Positions 16,026 through 33,220 of a stretch of 33,220 nt of DNA are shown piece by piece. The translations under genes were made by a program, and so were the position numbers. The stretch covers positions 1-33,220 of the forward strand of contig JANLHZ010000017.1 in the NCBI GenBank assembly GCA_024653775.1, given 5' to 3'. Every line of letters begins with the position of its first letter. The first letter of the stretch is position 1. This DNA is from Planctomycetota bacterium (GTDB lineage: Bacteria; Planctomycetota; UBA8742; JACQVU01; JANLHZ01). The notes below the pieces were generated by a model. That model was not told the DNA's origin, made no database searches, and saw only the letters and a list, made by a program, of their open reading frames with translations.

Positions 16026-17747
16026 TCAGTCCCGGATGTCGATAATTTTGTGAACGCGTTTGTCCTGCTGCTGTGTGATTGCTCCGGGGTTTCCGCCGGG
16101 GAAGAGTCCGCCTAAGGGATTTGTCCCGCCTGCGAGACTGATTTGCTCGTAGGTGAACGAAAGCGCGTTCGACGTAGCTCCGTTCACCGTCACCGTGACG
16201 TCGACCGTCACCGGCCCTGAAAGAAGTCCGATAATGTTCGATGGAAGTCCGGGCGTGCAGGTGATCAGATTCGCGCTCGTCACGGTCACGTTGATCGCGG
16301 CGCTTCCGCCAAAATCGACTGTCGTTTCCCCCGCGACGGTGCTGAATCCAGCGCCGGCTATCGCGACTACGAGACCGCTGTCGATCGCGCCGCCGGTGAG
16401 GACGCCTGCGTTCAGCGCCATCGTATTCGGCGTAAGCGATATGATCGTCACGCCGCCTTCGCCCGGAATGATGCCTCCAGGGAGTTCCCCCATCGTGTAA
16501 GTGAACTGCTGCGAAAGAGTCGCGCTGTTCGACCCGACCGTCACGACGACATCCGCCGGATCGAATTCGAAGGTTCCCGCGAGCAGCGCGGAAAGCGATC
16601 CGAGAAGGTCCGACGGAAGCGGCGGATTCGGGATCGTGAGGCTGATCGCGTTCGCGGTGACGCTGCTGATCGTCGCGGCCTGCGTCCCGAACATGACCGA
16701 CGTCTGCCCGGAGACGAATCCGCTGCCCGTGATGATCGCGGTGGACGGATCTACCGATAGCGTGATCCCCGCGGTCAGATCTCCAGCGGCGCTGACTTTG
16801 GTCGCCATCGGAGTCATCCCGGAGAGCGTAATCGCGCCCGGAGTCGAAGTCGCGGTGGTGTACGTGAACGCGGAATTCAGTGTCGACGACGAAACCGTAC
16901 CGTTAGCGACTGTGACGTTCACCGCGCCGACGTTTCCGGCGGGAGTGAGAACCGAAAGACGGGTGCCGTCGGTCGAGACGCTGACGAAGGTCGCGCTTGT
17001 CTGCCCGAAGCTGACTGACGTGCCGTCTACGAATCCGCTGCCTGTGAGTTCGACAAGGGTTCCGCCCGACGCGCTTCCGGACGTCGGCGCGATGCTGACG
17101 AGCGACAGCGCCGGCGGCGAAACATACGTGAACCCGCCGCTCAGAGTTCCGGAGCCGATGCCGTTATCGACAGTGACGTCCTTCAGTCCCGAGGAGCTTG
17201 ACGACGCGGTCCTGCCGCGAAGTTCGACCAGCGATACCACCTCGACGTTCGTCAGCGACACTCCGCCTATAGTCGCGGTGCTCGCTAGCTGGAAGTTCGT
17301 CCCGCGGATCGTCACAGACGTGTTCCCAAGCGTGCTTCCAAGCGTGGGCGAAATGCTCGTCACCGTCGGCGGCGCGCTTTCGTTGATGAATCTGAACGCG
17401 TTCTGCATCGTCGCGCGTCCATTTTTCGTGATGACGCTGACGTCCGTGAGACCGCTGCTCGCAACCGCGGGCGTCGTCGCTTCTAGCCTAGTCCAGCTTT
17501 TCACCGTCACGCTAGTGGCAAGCTCTCCCGCGAATGTCACCTCGGTATCGTCTTTCAGGAATCCACTGCCGAGAATGACCACAAGATCGCCTCCCGTGGT
17601 TGAGCCGAAGTCTGTGACGAGCAGCTCGATCGCAGGCGCGTCGGTGGAGTTTTCGTCGAGGGAGGTTTCCGTCCCCATCGGCTCGCAGGCCGCGAAGAAA
17701 GCCGCGCACAACATGACAAGTGTGATGATATGTCTGTTCATTTTCAT
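16026..17747 (-). CDS. Lipoprotein with five IPT/TIG domains
   Basis: The 573-residue product has a lipoprotein signal with lipobox FAAC (Cys about residue 21), then an acidic-Ser/Thr linker, then five immunoglobulin-like IPT/TIG repeats at about residues 40-127, 129-212, 213-299, 303-422 and 430-540. The repeated signature is a Pro-x-x-Gly-x-x-x-Gly-Gly turn (PTSGSASGGTLVELTGSGF) with a GSGF and an F-x-Y end. Domains four and five carry insertions that lengthen them. It should be an extracellular, lipid-anchored beta-rich protein; IPT domains are common in surface and sugar-binding proteins. The ATG start is followed by an alternative ATG two codons in. Confidence 0.9.
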   Translation of the reverse strand: MKMNRHIITLVMLCAAFFAACEPMGTETSLDENSTDAPAIELLVTDFGSTTGGDLVVILGSGFLKDDTEVTFAGELATSVTVKSWTRLEATTPAVASSGLTDVSVITKNGRATMQNAFRFINESAPPTVTSISPTLGSTLGNTSVTIRGTNFQLASTATIGGVSLTNVEVVSLVELRGRTASSSSSGLKDVTVDNGIGSGTLSGGFTYVSPPALSLVSIAPTSGSASGGTLVELTGSGFVDGTSVSFGQTSATFVSVSTDGTRLSVLTPAGNVGAVNVTVANGTVSSSTLNSAFTYTTATSTPGAITLSGMTPMATKVSAAGDLTAGITLSVDPSTAIITGSGFVSGQTSVMFGTQAATISSVTANAISLTIPNPPLPSDLLGSLSALLAGTFEFDPADVVVTVGSNSATLSQQFTYTMGELPGGIIPGEGGVTIISLTPNTMALNAGVLTGGAIDSGLVVAIAGAGFSTVAGETTVDFGGSAAINVTVTSANLITCTPGLPSNIIGLLSGPVTVDVTVTVNGATSNALSFTYEQISLAGGTNPLGGLFPGGNPGAITQQQDKRVHKIIDIRD

Positions 17748-17879: not shown

Positions 17880-18629
17880 TCAGGGTTTGAGCACGATCCG
17901 CGTGAAAAGATGATAACACACGAGGCAGATCGCGAGGAGGTAGCGCGTGACCATCATTCCGATGTACCACGGTTCGATGGCGTAAGCGCTGATGTTCGTC
18001 AGCGAAATGATGTCTGTAATGAAGTAAAGACTGATCGTGCCGAAGAATGCCCATGTGCCGATCTGAGAGCCGAGCCACATCCCGACGCAGGCAATAATCA
18101 GCAGAATCGTGTAAACGAACCCGAACCAGTACAAAACGTTCTTGTTCTCCGAAGACACTAGTGCAAGTTCGATACCGTAAATTGCGTCTCTCGCTGCGTT
18201 TACCTTCTCTTCGGCGTCGTCCAGTTGCTTCGTCTTCGACTCTGCATCGAGTGTTTCGTTCGATTCAACGTCTGCGAGTTCCTTCTCGATATTCGAAAGC
18301 GAAAGGCGAAGTTCCGGAATAGTGCCTTTCTGCTTCGAGAGGGCTAAAAGATTCGGATCGACGTTCTCCTCGTCCTCGATATCGGAGTTGTAACCATACG
18401 TACTGACAAGCACGAAGAAGTTTAGAATGAAGAACAGGATCAACGAAATCGGAAACGCATACGAAAAGAAACCTCGATCGCCCTCCGGATCGATGGTCTG
18501 GAGGAAAGCATTGAACCCGGATTCGGGCATGCCGCTATCGCTGAAAATATCCTCGGTGGCGGTGCCGCCGGAAGGTTGCGATCCGTTTCCATGCGTATCA
18601 TTTGGCGAAGAATCCACTTTCCTCTCCAT
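17880..18629 (-). CDS. Unknown membrane protein with four helices and a coiled-coil loop
   Basis: I do not recognise the family. The N-terminus is low-complexity and hydrophilic (Ser, Asn, Gly). One long hydrophobic segment follows (FPISLILFFILNFFVLVST), then a charged region of about 90 residues predicted to be coiled coil (QKGTIPELRLSLSNIEKEL onward), then three more hydrophobic segments ending near FTRIVLK. It is probably an inner-membrane protein with a cytoplasmic coiled coil. None of three in-frame ATGs (18683, 18656, 18629) has a good Shine-Dalgarno; I chose the last because it begins with the first polar segment. It ends in a weak hairpin. Confidence 0.65.
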   Translation of the reverse strand: MERKVDSSPNDTHGNGSQPSGGTATEDIFSDSGMPESGFNAFLQTIDPEGDRGFFSYAFPISLILFFILNFFVLVSTYGYNSDIEDEENVDPNLLALSKQKGTIPELRLSLSNIEKELADVESNETLDAESKTKQLDDAEEKVNAARDAIYGIELALVSSENKNVLYWFGFVYTILLIIACVGMWLGSQIGTWAFFGTISLYFITDIISLTNISAYAIEPWYIGMMVTRYLLAICLVCYHLFTRIVLKP

Positions 18630-22971: not shown

Positions 22972-24711
22972 GTGTTTTTTCTATCGGGCTATCTCGATCA
23001 GATCGACTTCAGCGACTTCGGCTTTCCGCTGCAGATAGCGGCCGCGTTCATTGCGGCTCTGGTCTGCGGGATGGTCGCGAGCTTCCTGCACATGCCGCGG
23101 GTTGTCGGATACATCGTGGGCGGGCTTCTGCTTGGTCCGGACGTTCTGCGCGTGTTCAGTCGGGCCGAGTCCGGAGCCGACGATCCGTTTCGTCCGGCGG
23201 TAGACCTCGCGCTCGCGATTGTGATGCTAAGCGTAGGCGCCACGTTCTACTTTCCTTCCGTCAAACGGCTTGCGAAATCCGTACTCGGAATCGCGGCTTT
23301 CCAGAGCGCTGCGACGTTCGCCTTAGTCGGGCTGCTGACCTACCTCGCGCTGGACCAGGCGTCCTGCGAGGTCCCACTTATGCTCGGAATTCTCGCCATC
23401 GAAATCGCTCCGGCGACCACGCTGCTTGTCATGCGGGAGTACCAGAGCGAAGGTTCCGTCACTAAGCGCGTTCTAATTCTGATCGGCGTGGTGAACCTGC
23501 TCTGCATTGTCGCGTTCCAGATCGCGTTCTACGGATTCATGAACATCGTGGAACATGACGTCCATCCGGGGCTGATTATTCTTAAGAACCTCGGCGTGGG
23601 CGCGCTGCTCGGATTCGTGGGCGCGTTCCTTCTCGTCTTCGCGTACGAGCGCCTTGCGGGGAAGGAGCGCGCCGCCGCGTTCTTCGCGGTGCTCTTCGGG
23701 ACGGTCGCGTGCTGCGAATACTTCGAGCTGCCGACGCTGCTCGCTTTTCTATCGATGGGGATCGTGCTTACGAACATCTGCGACTTCGGCAAGGAAATCC
23801 TCGATCAGTACGACGGCATCGCGAAGCCGCTTTACGTTATGTTTTTCGTGATCGCTGGGTCGCAGATGCACGTCGAGGAGCTTCTACACCTTTCGCCCGA
23901 AGGGATGCTGCTGATGGGACTCTACATTTTCGGGAGATTCTCGGGCAAGATCGTCGGCGCGTGGTTTGGCGCGAAGATAACCGACGAAAGAGCAAGCATT
24001 CGCAGGTTCGTCGGACCCGCGCTGCTTTCCCAGGCGGGACTCGCTATCGGACTCGCGTATGAATGTCAGAAGCACAGTCCGGAGCTTGGGAACCAGCTTC
24101 TTTCGATCGTCCTTCCGAGCATAATTTTCTTCGAAGTTCTCGGACCTCTCGGAGTCAGATTCGCGGTCCTCCGCGCGGGCGAAGTCAAAATGCTCGCGCT
24201 GCTCGAAACCTCGCGCGTCGGCGCGCGGCCCGAAACGCTGCTACAGCTCGTCCGCAAACTTCTGACCAGCCTCGGCATCCTGAAGCGCAAGGTCGGAAAG
24301 AAGACCGAGGACATCGTGGTCGAAGACATAATGCGAAAGAGCGTCCCGACTCTGCGCGAGAACTCGAGGCTCGAAGGAATACTCGATTTCTTCGAAAACT
24401 ACCACCTGCCCGTTATTCCGGTGATCGACGCGGAAGGATGGTATCTGGGCGTGATCACTCAGCAGGAGATCAAGGAGTTGCTTTACGATCCGATGCTGAA
24501 CAACCTCGTGATCGCGCTCGAACTCACCAGGGACGAGGACCCGGCGCTGAGTCCCGATATCAGCGCGTCGGACGCGCTTTCGCTGCTCGCCCGCGCGAAG
24601 ATCGAAGCCGCGCCGGTGGTGATGGACGCTGGGGACGGCAGAAAGAAACTCGTCGGCTACGTGGATCAGCGCGACATCATCAGTCTTTTCGGGAGGGACC
24701 TCGCCACCTGA
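22972..24711 (+). CDS. CPA2-type cation:proton antiporter with C-terminal CBS domain pair
   Basis: The 579-residue product has a Na+/H+ exchanger-like (KefB/CPA2) membrane domain to about residue 400, opening with ALVCGMVASFLHMPRVVGYI and GGLLLGP. The acidic residue usual in the helix 5-6 region appears in GILAIEIAPATTLLV. Two CBS motifs follow from about residue 437 (VEDIMRKSVPTLRENS, SPDISASDALSLL), a regulatory pair that binds adenine nucleotides. It lacks the KefB/KefC RCK domain, so gating is likely by nucleotide binding to CBS. Start is GTG, directly after the heptamer array. Confidence 0.9.
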   Translation: MFFLSGYLDQIDFSDFGFPLQIAAAFIAALVCGMVASFLHMPRVVGYIVGGLLLGPDVLRVFSRAESGADDPFRPAVDLALAIVMLSVGATFYFPSVKRLAKSVLGIAAFQSAATFALVGLLTYLALDQASCEVPLMLGILAIEIAPATTLLVMREYQSEGSVTKRVLILIGVVNLLCIVAFQIAFYGFMNIVEHDVHPGLIILKNLGVGALLGFVGAFLLVFAYERLAGKERAAAFFAVLFGTVACCEYFELPTLLAFLSMGIVLTNICDFGKEILDQYDGIAKPLYVMFFVIAGSQMHVEELLHLSPEGMLLMGLYIFGRFSGKIVGAWFGAKITDERASIRRFVGPALLSQAGLAIGLAYECQKHSPELGNQLLSIVLPSIIFFEVLGPLGVRFAVLRAGEVKMLALLETSRVGARPETLLQLVRKLLTSLGILKRKVGKKTEDIVVEDIMRKSVPTLRENSRLEGILDFFENYHLPVIPVIDAEGWYLGVITQQEIKELLYDPMLNNLVIALELTRDEDPALSPDISASDALSLLARAKIEAAPVVMDAGDGRKKLVGYVDQRDIISLFGRDLAT

Positions 24712-24712
24712 A

Positions 24713-24740
24713 ATTACGAATTACGAATTACGAATTGCGG
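24713..24740 (+). repeat. Heptanucleotide array after the antiporter gene (ATTACGA units)
   Basis: Three perfect ATTACGA units and one ATTGCGG begin immediately after the stop codon. The units are the reverse complement of those in the second array 100 bases on, so the two form a 26-bp perfect inverted repeat (24712-24737 with 24842-24867). Confidence 0.9.
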
Positions 24741-24756: not shown

Positions 24757-24843
24757 CGCGCAGCCTCGATTTCCCGAGGTTTTGGCAGTTCACAGGACAA
24801 TCGAATTCGAAACGCGCTTTGATCGACAATCGAACCTGGATCA

Positions 24844-24877
24844 ATTCGTAATTCGTAATTCGTAATTCGTAATTCAA
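24844..24877 (+). repeat. Heptanucleotide array abutting the glycosyltransferase start codon (ATTCGTA units)
   Basis: Four perfect ATTCGTA units and a final ATTCAA end exactly at the ATG. No Shine-Dalgarno is present. The array is inverted with respect to the array at 24713. Confidence 0.9.
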
Positions 24878-25987
24878 ATGACCCCGCGTCTGACCATCGT
24901 CATCCCGATGCTGAACGAAGAGCTGAATATAAGGCCTCTGTTCGGACGGCTGTTCACGGTACTGGACGGCCTCGACCTCATCTACGAAGTGATATGCGTA
25001 AACGACGGAAGCAAGGACCGTACGCCCGAGATTCTCGCGGAAGAGGCGGAGTCGCGGCACCAGCTCAGGGTTATCAACTTCGCGCGAAACTTCGGCCAGC
25101 ACGCCGCGGTGATGGCGGGCTTCGATTACGCGAAAGGCGAATGGATAATCACGCTCGACGCGGACCTCCAGAACCCGCCTGAGGAAATCCCGAAGATCGT
25201 CGCGGAGTTCGAGAAAGGTCACGACCTTGTAAACACCATCCGCCAGGGAAGGCAGGACACCTGGTTCAGGAAGACCGCGTCGAAGATCGTCAACAACGTC
25301 ATGCGCAAATTTTCGGGAATCAATCTGAAGGACTTCGGGTGCATGCTCCGCGGCTACCACGCAAACGTCGCGAAGCCAATGTGCAAGCGCCGCGAGTTCC
25401 ACACGTTCATTCCCGCGCTCGCGACGCTCTACGCCGGGAATCCGGTGGAGATTCCAGTGGCGCACGCGGGTCGAGAACACGGCGCGTCGAACTACTCGCT
25501 GCGAAAGCTGTTCTCGCTCCAGCTCGATCTCATCGCGAGCTTTTCGCTCACGCCGCTCAGACTGCTTTTCACGCTCGGCGCGGGCATCGCGGTCTTTTCG
25601 ATTCTGTTCGCGTTTCTGCTGATCTGCGTCCGGCTGTACTTCGGCGCGACGTGGGCGGGGGAGGGCGTGTTCACGGTGTTCGCGGTGCTGTTCTTCCTGA
25701 TCGGCGCGCAGTTCTTCGCCTTCGGGCTTCTCGGCGAATACATCGGAAGGATCTATCAGGAGGTCCGCGACCGCCCCGCGTATCTCGTCAGCGAAATCGT
25801 CAGCTTCCGGCAAAGCTCCGTTCCGGACAATCGCGGCGATCGAGTCAAGCGCGCGACGGACGTCATTCCATCTGCCGCGATCGAACCCGAACGGGACGCA
25901 GGTAAGCGCCTTTCCGCGGAAGACAACTCGAGCTGGGTTCCGGACGAAGACACGTCGGACACGATCGACACCAAGGGATTCGAGTAG
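24878..25987 (+). CDS. Family 2 glycosyltransferase, ArnC/GtrB (polyprenyl-phosphate sugar transferase) type
   Basis: The 369-residue product has a GT-A nucleotide-sugar domain (TIVIPMLNEELNIRPL, the Asp-x-Asp-like ITLDADLQNPPEE, and FARNFGQHAAVMAGFDYA) and two C-terminal membrane helices (LLFTLGAGIAVFSILFAFLL and FTVFAVLFFLIGAQFFAFGL), ending in the family segment GLLGEYIGRIYQEVRDRP. Such enzymes move a sugar from a nucleotide onto undecaprenyl phosphate at the inner membrane. A tail of about 70 residues beyond the usual end is hydrophilic and of unknown use. The ATG directly follows a heptamer array. Donor sugar unknown. Confidence 0.92.
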   Translation: MTPRLTIVIPMLNEELNIRPLFGRLFTVLDGLDLIYEVICVNDGSKDRTPEILAEEAESRHQLRVINFARNFGQHAAVMAGFDYAKGEWIITLDADLQNPPEEIPKIVAEFEKGHDLVNTIRQGRQDTWFRKTASKIVNNVMRKFSGINLKDFGCMLRGYHANVAKPMCKRREFHTFIPALATLYAGNPVEIPVAHAGREHGASNYSLRKLFSLQLDLIASFSLTPLRLLFTLGAGIAVFSILFAFLLICVRLYFGATWAGEGVFTVFAVLFFLIGAQFFAFGLLGEYIGRIYQEVRDRPAYLVSEIVSFRQSSVPDNRGDRVKRATDVIPSAAIEPERDAGKRLSAEDNSSWVPDEDTSDTIDTKGFE

Positions 25988-29180: not shown

Positions 29181-29703
29181 TTCGTCCCCTGTAATTGTTG
29201 TTGGCGTCTCCGAGGGCATGGTCCCTCGGCTGAGCAAATATTTCTTGAGTTGTAAGGATATTCGAAGTTTACGAAACGTTTGTGAGGTACTACAAGTAAA
29301 ATTTGGCTGAGAGTTTGACGAAGCGACTACGATCGTCTCGAAAGCCGGGTGGAAGATCGCGGTCTATAGCGGGAATCTGTTCGTAGTGTGCTCGTGAGAG
29401 CATGTTGCTCGTAGTGTGCTCGTGAGAGCATATTGGTGGATCAAAGAAACGCCTTACGGCGCTACTACGAACGCGAACTACCCCGTGAACTGTTCGTAGT
29501 GTGCTCGTGAGAGCATATTGGTGGATCAAAGAAACGCCTTACGGCGCTACTACGAACGCGAACTACCCCGTGAACTGTTACGAATATCGAAGAAGAGCGC
29601 GGAAGCGTAAGGAGGCTAAAATAAATAAAGTATTCAAAATCGCGCTCAGGTTTATGTCAGGTTCGCTTCGATCGAGGAAGTCAAAACGGAGTCGTAGCGA
29701 CGA
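29181..29703. other. Non-coding spacer with REPIN-like tandem repeats
   Basis: No gene is visible. The central part is the tandem repeat at 29378-29579. The parts on both sides are unremarkable; open frames across the repeats have no coding signature. Confidence 0.7.
29378..29579. mobile_element. REPIN-like element, 2.3 copies in an 85-bp tandem array
   Basis: Two perfect 85-bp units (29410-29494 and 29495-29579) follow a partial unit of 26 bases. Each holds GTAG, hairpin TGCTC-GTGA-GAGCA, a 19-base spacer, hairpin CGCC-TTAC-GGCG and CTAC, with CGTAGT/ACTACG able to close the structure. The relation to 6782-6826 includes compensating changes in both stems. Confidence 0.85.
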
Positions 29704-31335
29704 TCAGTTCTCTTCGGGTCGTTCGAGTTCCTGCTGGAGTTCGTTTCGCGCGGTGCCCAGCTTCGCCTTCTCGACGTCGAGGCTCAGCATTAGCGGACGA
29801 TCGCCGCGCTGCTTCGCAAGGCGGATTGCGTCGTCGAGATCGACCTGCGCGGAATCGATCAGCGCGCTTCTGGTCGATAGATCGGATTCAAGGTCGATCC
29901 GCGCGAAATTCACATTGTACGCCGCGAGGTAGCTTCTACCCGCTCTTTCTGGATCGTTCTGAGCGAGGAATCCTTCCGCCTGCTCGCGGTACTTCGACGC
30001 GACGTAGTCCTCGTACGCGGCGTGCTTCTTCCGGATTTCGCTGCGCTGCTCAGGGGGAAGATACGTCGCCGCGATTTCCGACGCGCGGCTGATCGTCGCG
30101 CCCGCGAGCGCATGCTCCTCGTCGATTTCGAGGCTAAGTCCGCGGTACGAATCGAAGCTGCGAAGATACAGATCGACCGCGCGTGCGTAATCCCCGTCCA
30201 GGTCCGAGACGAGGGCGCGATCGTGGAAGTCGTCCGCGATGGCGCGGGCAAGCAGGACGGTCTCCCGCTGAATCCTTTCAGCAAGTTCGGGATCGCGAAC
30301 CTCGGTTTCGCGGACGAGGGCGCGCGCCTCATCGAGATCGACCTTTGCGTGCACTAGCCTTCGCACGGTGACGTTCACGTAGTACGCGCGATGGAAGTAC
30401 GATATCGCCCGCGCGCTGTCCTTGTTCTCCCGGTGCGCGACGGCGAGGAAGTGCAGGTCCTCCGCGATCCCGACCTGGTTGCGCGCCTCCTGATCGAGGG
30501 CGAGCGCCTCGTTAAACCGTGCGATCGCCTCGACGTAGTTCTTGTCCTCGAAAAAGATCGAGCCGAGGGAGACGTACGCCGCCGCGGCCTGGACCTTGTG
30601 CGAATCGGCGGTGGAGGAATCGAAAAAGTCCTCGTGATAATCGATGCTGCGTTCGAAATTCGTTATCGCTCCATCCTTGTCGCCCTCCGCGAGCGCGAGC
30701 GCGCCGAGATTCGCAACGATCAGCGCGCTTTCGTTGTCCGGATCCTCGTTTTCAATCGCGTCGTAATGGGAAAGCGACGAATCGAAGAAAGTCTTTGCTT
30801 CGACGTACTTTTCTGCGCGCATCCGAAGTCCGCCCAGGTTATTCATCACGGCGCCCGCGAGAATGTGGTAGCCGTCCGCGAGCATCTCGTCGTCCCTCCG
30901 GAGCCTCGCGTCCGCGGGAAGCTGAAGGTCGGCGAGACCTTCCGGGTTGTAAAGGAACTCCTTCAGCACCTCGATCGCCTTCGTTAAAAATTCCTCGGCG
31001 GCTGAAATCTCGCCCGCGTCCGCGCGGAGTTCGCCGAGGTTTATGTACGCGTTCGCGACTCCAAAACGGGAATCGACGCCCTGATTCGCTTCGAGTGACT
31101 TGCGGAACGAAATCTCCGCCTTGTGCGAATCGCCGAAGTGCGCGGCGGAGACGCCGTCGAGATCGAGCTTCAGCGTGACGTCCGAAGGCTCCGGGACCGG
31201 AGTCGAGCCGCAGCCCGAAATCAGCATCGCCGCGAAAACGAAGGCGAGGCAGAGAAATGCAGAATGCAGAATGCTGAATGCCGTTCGTAATCCGTAATTC
31301 GTAATTCGTAATTCGTAATTCTCTTCGTAATTCAC
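29704..31335 (-). CDS. TPR-repeat lipoprotein with repeat-encoded N-terminus
   Basis: The 543-residue product begins at a GTG whose following A completes the stop codon of the upstream MlaD-like gene (GTGA), so the two are translationally coupled. Residues 1-25 come from heptanucleotide DNA (ENYELRITNYGLRTAFSILH). A hydrophobic core and lipobox LISGC with Cys42 follow. The mature protein has several TPR-type helix pairs (AYINLGELRADAGEISAAEEF, YVSLGSIFFEDKNYVEAIARF, and ALVSDLDGDYARAVDLYLRS). It should be membrane-anchored and facing the periplasm. With an MCE protein upstream it may belong to a lipid-transport assembly; that is inference from linkage. Confidence 0.85.
   Translation of the reverse strand: MNYEENYELRITNYGLRTAFSILHSAFLCLAFVFAAMLISGCGSTPVPEPSDVTLKLDLDGVSAAHFGDSHKAEISFRKSLEANQGVDSRFGVANAYINLGELRADAGEISAAEEFLTKAIEVLKEFLYNPEGLADLQLPADARLRRDDEMLADGYHILAGAVMNNLGGLRMRAEKYVEAKTFFDSSLSHYDAIENEDPDNESALIVANLGALALAEGDKDGAITNFERSIDYHEDFFDSSTADSHKVQAAAAYVSLGSIFFEDKNYVEAIARFNEALALDQEARNQVGIAEDLHFLAVAHRENKDSARAISYFHRAYYVNVTVRRLVHAKVDLDEARALVRETEVRDPELAERIQRETVLLARAIADDFHDRALVSDLDGDYARAVDLYLRSFDSYRGLSLEIDEEHALAGATISRASEIAATYLPPEQRSEIRKKHAAYEDYVASKYREQAEGFLAQNDPERAGRSYLAAYNVNFARIDLESDLSTRSALIDSAQVDLDDAIRLAKQRGDRPLMLSLDVEKAKLGTARNELQQELERPEEN
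31256..31318 (-). repeat. Nine-unit heptanucleotide array inside the 5' end of the TPR lipoprotein gene
   Basis: On the plus strand the units are AATGCAG twice, AATGCTG, AATGCCG, TTCGTAA, TCCGTAA and TTCGTAA three times. The array is translated as the N-terminal region of the lipoprotein, so here the repeat is part of a gene. Confidence 0.9.
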
Positions 31336-32714
31336 TTCCCGGTTCCCTCCGGATACGCGCTAGGCCTTGCGACGTAGCGAAGCGTCACCGATACTCTTGG
31401 CGACTCGCCCGCGATCGCGCTGATTGGCCAGGTGTTTCGAAGTCCGGAGACGATTTCCGTTGTGTCCTTCAGAAGGTCGTTCCCCGTTTTCGCCGCGCCG
31501 GGCAACTCGTCGAGCGCAAGCGCGACGTTGTCGATCATTCGCTCGATGCGCCCTTTGTCCGCCGCGATGACGCTCGCGATGCCGTTCGCGTGGGTGAGCA
31601 GCTCGTGGACGTCGTCCATCAGGTTTTCGGAGCGGACGATGAGTCCGTTTAAGTGCGCGTTGAACGTCGGGAACGTGACTTCGTTGAACTGCTTCAGCGA
31701 GGCCCGCAGCATCGGCTCGGTGCTGTCGCGGAACGTTCTCAAAAGGTCGTTTATCACCGGGAAGGTCTCGCGGTTGAACACGCTCCAGCTATGGTTGAGG
31801 TTTCCCATGGTTTCGCGCTCGATCTGCGCAAGGATTCCGTTCATCGCCGGAATGGTCTGCTCGGTGATCGCGCGTATGGTCTCGTCGACGCCTTCGATGT
31901 CGCGGAGCACGTTCAGCGCCTGCTCGACGAGACTCTGCTTCGGCCCGGCGGCGATCATCGACCCGCTTGCGATATTGTCGCCTTCCAGCTTTTTCGGCGG
32001 GAACACGTCCACCGACGCCGGGAGCGCGGGCGGGAATCCCTTGTTGTAGATGATCGCCGTTCCGTCTTTGATAAGATCGCAGTAGACCTTGCCGTCGATG
32101 CGGATCGTAACGCGTATCGCGGCGCCCTCGATATCCTCCGTTTCCTCGGGAAAGAGATTCATCCACTGTGTGGCGGTGTCGACCTGCTGCTCCAGGGGGA
32201 CGAAATCCGAATCGCCCGGAACAGGCCTCCCGCGCTGGCGCGCCGTGGGCTTCTCTTCCGGAGACTCCTCAGGAGTTTCGCCCAGCGCTTCCGCCTCCGT
32301 CGCCCTGATCGCCGCCTCGGTTGCCTCGGCTTCGTCCCGCTCGGCTTCTTTCTGGCGCTGTTCGATCTCGTAATCGATCTCCCGCTGAATCCTTCGAATC
32401 TGTCGGTCGCGGTATAGGTTGTACCTGCGCTGAACCTCGAGATGACGCCACTCGATTATCTCCTCGTCCTTCGCCGCGTCGTTCGGACTTATGAACTCGA
32501 CGCTCGAAACCGATCCCGCGTTGACCCCCTGAATAGTGACGGCGTCTCCGATTTTGAGTACTCCGCCTTCCGTCAGGTAGAAGTGGTAATACGCGCGGGT
32601 TTCGAAGAGTCCGACCATATCCTTGAACGCGAGAAAAACCAGCGACGCGATCGCGAACAGCACGAACACTCCTACAAGCTTCTCGCCGGGGTGGACTCTG
32701 ATTTTTTGGCTCAT
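31332..32714 (-). CDS. MlaD/MCE-domain protein
   Basis: The 460-residue product has an N-terminal membrane anchor (KLVGVFVLFAIASLVFLAFK), then an MCE domain (TEGGVLKIGDAVTIQGVNAGSV) that continues after a long charged insertion (about residues 85-195, Glu-Arg-rich, probably coiled coil) with RVTIRIDGKVYCDLIKDGTA. A long helical C-terminal part follows. MCE proteins form hexameric channels that carry lipids across the periplasm with an MlaE permease and MlaF ATPase, neither of which is in the window. The insertion in the MCE domain is unusual in length. A translationally coupled TPR lipoprotein follows. Confidence 0.85.
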   Translation of the reverse strand: MSQKIRVHPGEKLVGVFVLFAIASLVFLAFKDMVGLFETRAYYHFYLTEGGVLKIGDAVTIQGVNAGSVSSVEFISPNDAAKDEEIIEWRHLEVQRRYNLYRDRQIRRIQREIDYEIEQRQKEAERDEAEATEAAIRATEAEALGETPEESPEEKPTARQRGRPVPGDSDFVPLEQQVDTATQWMNLFPEETEDIEGAAIRVTIRIDGKVYCDLIKDGTAIIYNKGFPPALPASVDVFPPKKLEGDNIASGSMIAAGPKQSLVEQALNVLRDIEGVDETIRAITEQTIPAMNGILAQIERETMGNLNHSWSVFNRETFPVINDLLRTFRDSTEPMLRASLKQFNEVTFPTFNAHLNGLIVRSENLMDDVHELLTHANGIASVIAADKGRIERMIDNVALALDELPGAAKTGNDLLKDTTEIVSGLRNTWPISAIAGESPRVSVTLRYVARPSAYPEGTGK

Positions 32715-33220
32715 TGCCTTCTCTGGAATACAAACGTGGAATACGGTCGTGAATCGGTTTTCGGATATTCAAACATCGTGACTACGAAATGCAAAGATTT
32801 ACCAAACATTCTTTGATAACGCGGAAGAGGATCGAGGTTCGTTCAAGAACAGCCTCGGACGTTGAATACAGGACCGATGGCTTTCAAACTTGACAAGAAA
32901 AACGCAGCATCCGCCAGCGACAGTACGAATTGCAAAGTCCAATTTGGAGTCCAAATTGGACTTTGCAATTCGTACTGCTATCGGGTCGCGTTCCATGAAT
33001 CACGTCAAACGGCCGTCTCGTCTGTGGATTGGCTTCGTTTCTCAGCCGTCTCCGGCTCACGCCCAGGATGAACGTGCCAGGTAGCGCAGTCGTCTCCACT
33101 GAATGCAGGCGTGACGCCTAATCATACTACGCATCCCCGCCAGCGTTTATGACGCGCTCGCGCGGACGGCATTCTTTGTCATCCGGTCCTTTCGTTCTCA
33201 GCTTTTTTTCCTTCCCGCTC
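32715..33220. other. Non-coding end of window
   Basis: No gene is visible. The one clear structure is the long palindrome at 32921-32977. A small hairpin AGGCG-TGA-CGCCT at about 33107-33119 is followed after six bases by CTAC, reminiscent of a half REP unit. Nothing else is seen. Confidence 0.6.
32921..32977. repeat. Perfect 57-bp palindrome with 28-bp arms and one-base centre
   Basis: The left arm begins CAGTACGAATTGCAAAG and the right arm ends CTTTGCAATTCGTACTG; every base pairs except the central G. It lies in a gene-free stretch about 200 bases from the MlaD-like gene start. In DNA it could extrude as a cruciform; in RNA it would form a very stable rod. There is no T-run, so it is not a simple terminator. 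Confidence 0.95.

Follow-up and report, generated by a model that had tools for sequence, protein, structure and literature searches.

A dispersed heptanucleotide repeat probably translated at the start of a lipoprotein gene in a Planctomycetota bacterium

The window analysed here is a 33,220-nt stretch of DNA from a Planctomycetota bacterium (GCA_024653775.1, contig JANLHZ010000017.1, positions 1 to 33,220). Near its end, two genes on the reverse strand follow each other directly: a gene for an MlaD-like protein and an ORF for a TPR-repeat lipoprotein (Table 1). The lipoprotein ORF matched TPR_12 above the curated threshold (E = 7e-24; 84.3 bits versus a cut-off of 30.1), other TPR models matched as well, and its hexamer coding score was 241 in its frame. 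The MlaD-like protein matched PF02470 (E = 2.9e-5) with 24.7 bits, slightly below the cut-off of 25.1. As the sequence-only reading had described, the GTG start of the lipoprotein gene overlaps the stop codon of the MlaD-like gene; the overlap is 4 nt long (GTGA), and −4 was the commonest spacing among the co-directional gene pairs sampled in the genome. The start is preceded by a Shine-Dalgarno-like motif, and such motifs of at least four bases preceded 223 of 540 genes in the sampled part of the genome. Elsewhere in the window, a perfect palindrome with 28-nt arms (CAGTACGAATTGCAAAGTCCAATTTGGA) and a 1-nt centre lies upstream of the MlaD-like gene (32921-32977), and an intergenic region contains two identical 85-bp direct tandem copies (29409-29579) with a related 28-bp copy at 29381-29435.

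Table 1. Features of the lipoprotein locus, and further heptamer arrays in the window and in two conserved genes (L164, L185)
Feature	Position	Strand	Basis or remark
MlaD-like gene, 460 aa, upstream, co-directional	31332-32714	-	PF02470 MlaD match
GGAGGG, Shine-Dalgarno-like	31345-31350	-	9 nt before GTG, within the end of the MlaD-like gene
TPR-repeat lipoprotein ORF, 543 aa	29704-31335	-	ORF list; TPR profile matches; coding score
GTG start of lipoprotein ORF	31335-31333	-	sequence; overlaps MlaD-like TGA 31334-31332
AATTACG array, encodes NYEENYELRITNYGL	31286-31332	-	sequence
Second heptamer array, CATTCAG, 2 x CATTCTG, CATTT (AATGCAG family)	31255-31280	-	sequence
Predicted lipoprotein signal peptide, 41 aa	31213-31335	-	translation, by inspection; residues 2-26 repeat-derived
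Lipobox ISG-C, Cys42	31210-31212	-	translation, by inspection
AATTACG array	24712-24736	+	directly after stop of Na/H-exchanger gene 22972-24711
AATTACG array, opposite orientation	24843-24875	-	2 nt before gene 24878-25987
hisF	L185:16722-17561		arrays 17131-17201
NifS-type cysteine desulfurase	L164:17959-19305		arrays 18355-18600, in frame

Codons 2-26 of the lipoprotein ORF had been attributed to a single heptamer array. They are indeed repeat-derived (AATTACG, AAGAG, 4 x AATTACG, GATTACG, AACGG, CATTCAG, 2 x CATTCTG, CATTT), but they comprise two different heptamer arrays and a 5-nt interruption. The first array consists of one AATTACG unit, the interruption AAGAG (31325-31321), four perfect units (31320-31293) and one degenerate unit; its longest uninterrupted tract is therefore only four units. 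The second array, of the CATTCTG/AATGCAG type, encodes AFSILHSAF and extends into the h-region, and the hydrophobic core of the signal peptide starts within it. In the orientation found here, AATTACG is free of stops and yields NYELRIT in all three frames, whereas the opposite strand contains stops, which rules out read-through of this array in the reverse orientation.

The lipoprotein product begins MNYEENYELRITNYGLRTAFSILHSAFLCLAFVFAAMLISG, followed by the lipobox cysteine as residue 42. By inspection only, a hydrophobic core (AFLCLAFVFAAML) and the lipobox ISG-C are present. The preceding n-region is long and uncharged in the sense that its three Glu and two Arg leave no net positive charge, which is unusual. 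No in-frame ATG, GTG or TTG other than the initial GTG was found upstream of the hydrophobic core, and the next canonical start is Met37, only five residues ahead of the lipobox cysteine. The repeats at the start of this gene are thus probably translated, because no other ATG, GTG or TTG could provide the signal peptide. Judged from the sequence, the earlier proposal that the repeat is read as a lipoprotein signal peptide very probably holds, with the arrays forming the n-region and part of the h-region. The hexamer score in successive blocks of 20 codons from the start was −1.0, 3.5 and 10.4 and became coding-like after the arrays.

An alternative is that the array is an untranslated spacer, with translation starting near the core at CTG codon 23 or ATT codon 22, or at ATG codon 37 without a signal peptide. 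Non-canonical initiation at CTG codon 23 or at ATT codon 11 or 22 may occur, and two other array-bearing genes do start normally after the array (L062:13375 with GTG, MRAVLAGMLLVVSMTFAGC; L170 with ATG), so that not every array-crossing ORF is translated across its array. The non-coding-like score of codons 1-20 also fits a spacer, although a low score is expected of repeat-derived sequence whether translated or not. At the lipoprotein locus, however, such a canonical start is absent, neither the CTG nor the ATT is preceded by a Shine-Dalgarno motif, and a start at ATG 37 would sacrifice the hydrophobic, coding-biased core together with the lipobox. We therefore consider a spacer unlikely.

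The repeat at the lipoprotein start belongs to an abundant class in this genome. The repeat survey covered 2.0 Mb of the genome's contigs, and exact arrays were counted in the first 1.1 Mb. In that part, 68 exact arrays of period 7 were found versus 0-3 for each of periods 4-6, 8-11 and 13; period 12 gave 13 arrays, and the arrays of period 14 were mostly a double heptamer unit. Under relaxed settings, the 2.0 Mb contained 152 arrays of period 7 versus 0, 1, 1 and 0 for periods 5, 8, 10 and 11; a minority of the sampled regions had been picked for holding AATTACG, which biases these densities upward but leaves the contrast between periods unaffected. Coding sequence makes up 84% of the sample, yet 46 of the 68 exact heptamer arrays were entirely intergenic; the copy number was 3-4 in 64 of the 68. 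Many arrays begin a few bases from a gene end and some lie close to gene starts; they occur in both orientations relative to neighbouring genes and also within coding regions. Several heptamer families coexist, and a pattern of three AATTACG units is present on many contigs. Arrays of this family nearly always start in the phase (G)AATT (20 of 21) and mostly end with AATT or GAAT. This regularity suggests a defined unit with a set boundary rather than random slippage. In the window itself, two oppositely oriented AATTACG arrays bracket one intergenic region downstream of the Na/H-exchanger gene (Table 1).

Where coding sequence directly flanked an array on both sides, 18 loci in about 14 genes were read through in frame; in the remaining eight, which represent adjacent genes, the array contains or abuts a stop codon. 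Freely drifting unit numbers would put two thirds of the intragenic arrays out of frame; no frameshifted intragenic locus was found against 18 of 18 in frame, in assembled consensus sequences that record the majority state only. The clearest case is HisF, in which residues 1-133 and 159-276 align to solved HisF structures and the gap between them (134-158) is a 25-residue in-frame insertion encoded by two heptamer arrays (ITNCELRITN and ESKSEISNLKSQI). This array-bearing protein scores 353.9 bits against an NCBIfam hisF cut-off of 294.6. The NifS-type cysteine desulfurase has residues 125-212 where solved relatives have approximately 12; the approximately 75 extra residues, including REQGEGS... 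and SILDPRS... repeats, are almost all heptamer-encoded. The repeat thus breaks into conserved domains without losing the frame. Arrays were also found in purL, a CusA/CzcA-type pump, an FAD oxidoreductase, an Hsp70-like protein and others; the array in the CusA-type protein stands in for a variable loop of similar length. Two further repeats were observed in coding sequences. In a 1502-aa acidic ORF (L056:3405-7913, + strand), NYELRITNYELDKSAD recurs and the array belongs to a longer repeat within the protein, and another dispersed, coding-tolerated repeat (peptide LPPGEG...) appears in several proteins (L140, L150, L164:15075).

The lipoprotein is not the only exported product whose ORF begins at an array. 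Three exported or pilin-like ORFs (L046, L052 and L060) have no canonical start between the array and the hydrophobic segment, apart from start codons within the repeat or at its edge and, in L060, a GTG four codons past it. L046 carries a second copy of the composite array of the window, including the AAGAG interruption (26 of 26 bases identical); with the second array included, the two composites align over 98 bases at 80% identity (E = 3e-15). This copy opens the ORF of another secreted protein, and the first ATG of that ORF falls within the array. The unit number differs between the two composites, and arrays therefore change over evolutionary time. The search for relatives to compare brought up none from the genus or the family. 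A protein search with the lipoprotein gave distant TPR matches only, a protein scan of genome contigs gave no orthologue, and a synteny search based on the MlaD-like gene gave one weak match only.

The sequence-only reading had also proposed that the array is a possible phase-variable switch. In such a switch, the AATTACG tract would slip by one unit and thereby silence the lipoprotein, and the population would be mixed. The arithmetic of the proposal is correct: seven is not a multiple of three, and a change of one unit exchanges the ON reading frame for an OFF one. With two or one units fewer, or one or two more, no canonical start is left in the lipoprotein frame, whereas a loss or gain of three units restores the GTG frame. 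The change in array length between the two composite copies is compatible with a switch, as is the over-representation of prokaryotic short repeats near N-termini described by Lin and Kussell, as cited in PMC4692102. However, the tract is too short for frequent slippage, with just four perfect units and an interruption, whereas the known heptamer switch of Haemophilus hmw1A, (ATCTTTC)n, has been studied at 13-24 units (PMC8262952). The hmw1A tract resembles the lipoprotein array in being a 7-nt tandem repeat at the 5' end of a surface-protein gene, but it is untranslated, lies in the promoter and alters the transcript level rather than the frame (PMC8262952). Moreover, similar arrays stand in frame in hisF, purL and the NifS-type gene, where switching would be harmful; frequent slippage would disrupt the housekeeping genes that hold such arrays, and the proposed switch is unsupported. 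No enrichment of arrays for surface genes was apparent, and the lipoprotein is unremarkable among the many array loci. These findings make a phase-variable switch improbable. A role as a regulatory element, that is, a protein- or RNA-binding site in an mRNA leader or in intergenic DNA comparable to the TAACTGA repeats of Beggiatoaceae, is highly improbable: although arrays cluster a few bases from gene ends and starts, many share 3-4 copies, and translational regulation has been proposed for a similar repeat class (PMC4679880), they lie in either orientation with respect to adjacent genes and also within coding regions, and the array at the lipoprotein locus sits inside the ORF.

The AATTACG repeat extends well beyond this genome. 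A 21-mer of the array was present in five of 149 genomes of the phylum, and GTG followed by three units was found in 58 stretches from unrelated bacteria, including Cyanobacteria, Chloroflexi, Bacteroidota, Verrucomicrobia and Desulfobacterota, among others. A conserved start module made of GTG and the array was considered and rejected: at these 58 loci in other genomes, most GTG ORFs were shorter than 60 aa, and the GTG is therefore usually mere flanking sequence. In Pseudanabaena cinerea, a NYELRIT array is read within MnmE (L233:5710-7125, − strand), and the alignment goes on at both sides. In Candidatus Nealsonbacteria, such an array lies within leucyl-tRNA synthetase (L253:3-881, + strand), in the position of a variable linker of similar length. 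As the arrays in this LeuRS and in the CusA-type protein add no net length, they show translation rather than the size of an insertion. The Nealsonbacteria LeuRS also contains ELSVISYRSL, a string similar to LSVISYQ, the heptapeptide that TAACTGA repeats encode. A text search of the literature for the full heptapeptide strings gave no match.

Among known repeats, Rickettsia palindromic elements (RPE) are palindromes of approximately 100-150 nt that are inserted in frame within protein genes and translated. The arrays described here likewise place repeat DNA in frame inside coding genes and thus work alike, but they are tandem heptamers and not members of the RPE family. The repeat of the window is instead a dispersed heptanucleotide repeat of the STRR type, with an excess of period 7, scattered and mainly intergenic copies, and a patchy distribution across bacteria. 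It shares with the heptanucleotide STRR of cyanobacteria, (GGGAATC)n of Xanthomonas and GGGGA(C/T)T of Nostoc the 7-nt unit, the dispersed and mostly intergenic location, a copy number of around four units and the frequent position near stop codons of co-directional genes (PMC4692102). It differs from them in its unit sequences, in the coexistence of several families, and in the translation of the stop-free orientation in conserved enzymes. The TAACTGA repeats of marine Beggiatoaceae are also intergenic heptamers beside starts and stops with a patchy distribution across phyla, and some copies in reverse orientation encode LSVISYQ in ORFs, mainly at the protein periphery or in hypothetical ORFs (PMC4679880), whereas the present arrays split conserved domains (HisF, NifS-type) in frame. 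PARCELs are likewise coding repeat elements that are patchy over distant microbes and tied to membrane-targeted proteins, but they are palindromic coding repeats of 25 residues that lie in ORFs with no assigned function (PMC2996958). Dispersed heptamers are therefore a known kind of repeat, usually called intergenic; their translation in conserved domains and in a signal peptide is what differs here.

Considering these results together, we regard as likely that a dispersed and normally intergenic heptamer element is now translated at an operon-gene junction, where it is tolerated and its unit number is fixed by the frame. Such an element would have come to sit where the two operon genes meet. 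Ribosomes would begin at the GTG overlapping the MlaD-like stop, the sole canonical start, and reading through the two stop-free arrays would produce the unusual n-region and the early h-region of the signal peptide. Signal peptidase II would then cut off the repeat-derived peptide, and the mature TPR lipoprotein would therefore be unaffected. The array may be tolerated because signal n-regions are permissive, like the surface loops that host in-frame copies (hisF, NifS-type and others). Selection for the reading frame would effectively fix the unit number, without any use in switching, as the uniformly in-frame intragenic loci suggest. The dispersed heptamer repeat looks like a tolerated filler that supplies protein sequence wherever it is inserted in the stop-free orientation, rather than an on/off switch.

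More broadly, and with somewhat less than even confidence, we propose that heptamer arrays in a stop-free orientation are protein-coding insertions found across phyla, which would spread as composites and not by slippage alone, become fixed in frame in signal peptides and enzyme loops, and in some cases supply the start codon and n-region of exported proteins. Heptamer repeats have so far mostly been seen as intergenic curiosities or possible regulators, whereas here they are translated in conserved enzymes (in this genome, in cyanobacterial MnmE and in CPR LeuRS) and apparently at the starts of exported proteins. If this proposal is true, such loci would be misjudged by gene callers and by phase-variation screens, and the spread and frame-keeping of a 7-nt unit would become testable in culturable cyanobacteria. 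Bacteria would then gain novel protein sequence, and novel N-termini, directly from spreading repeats.
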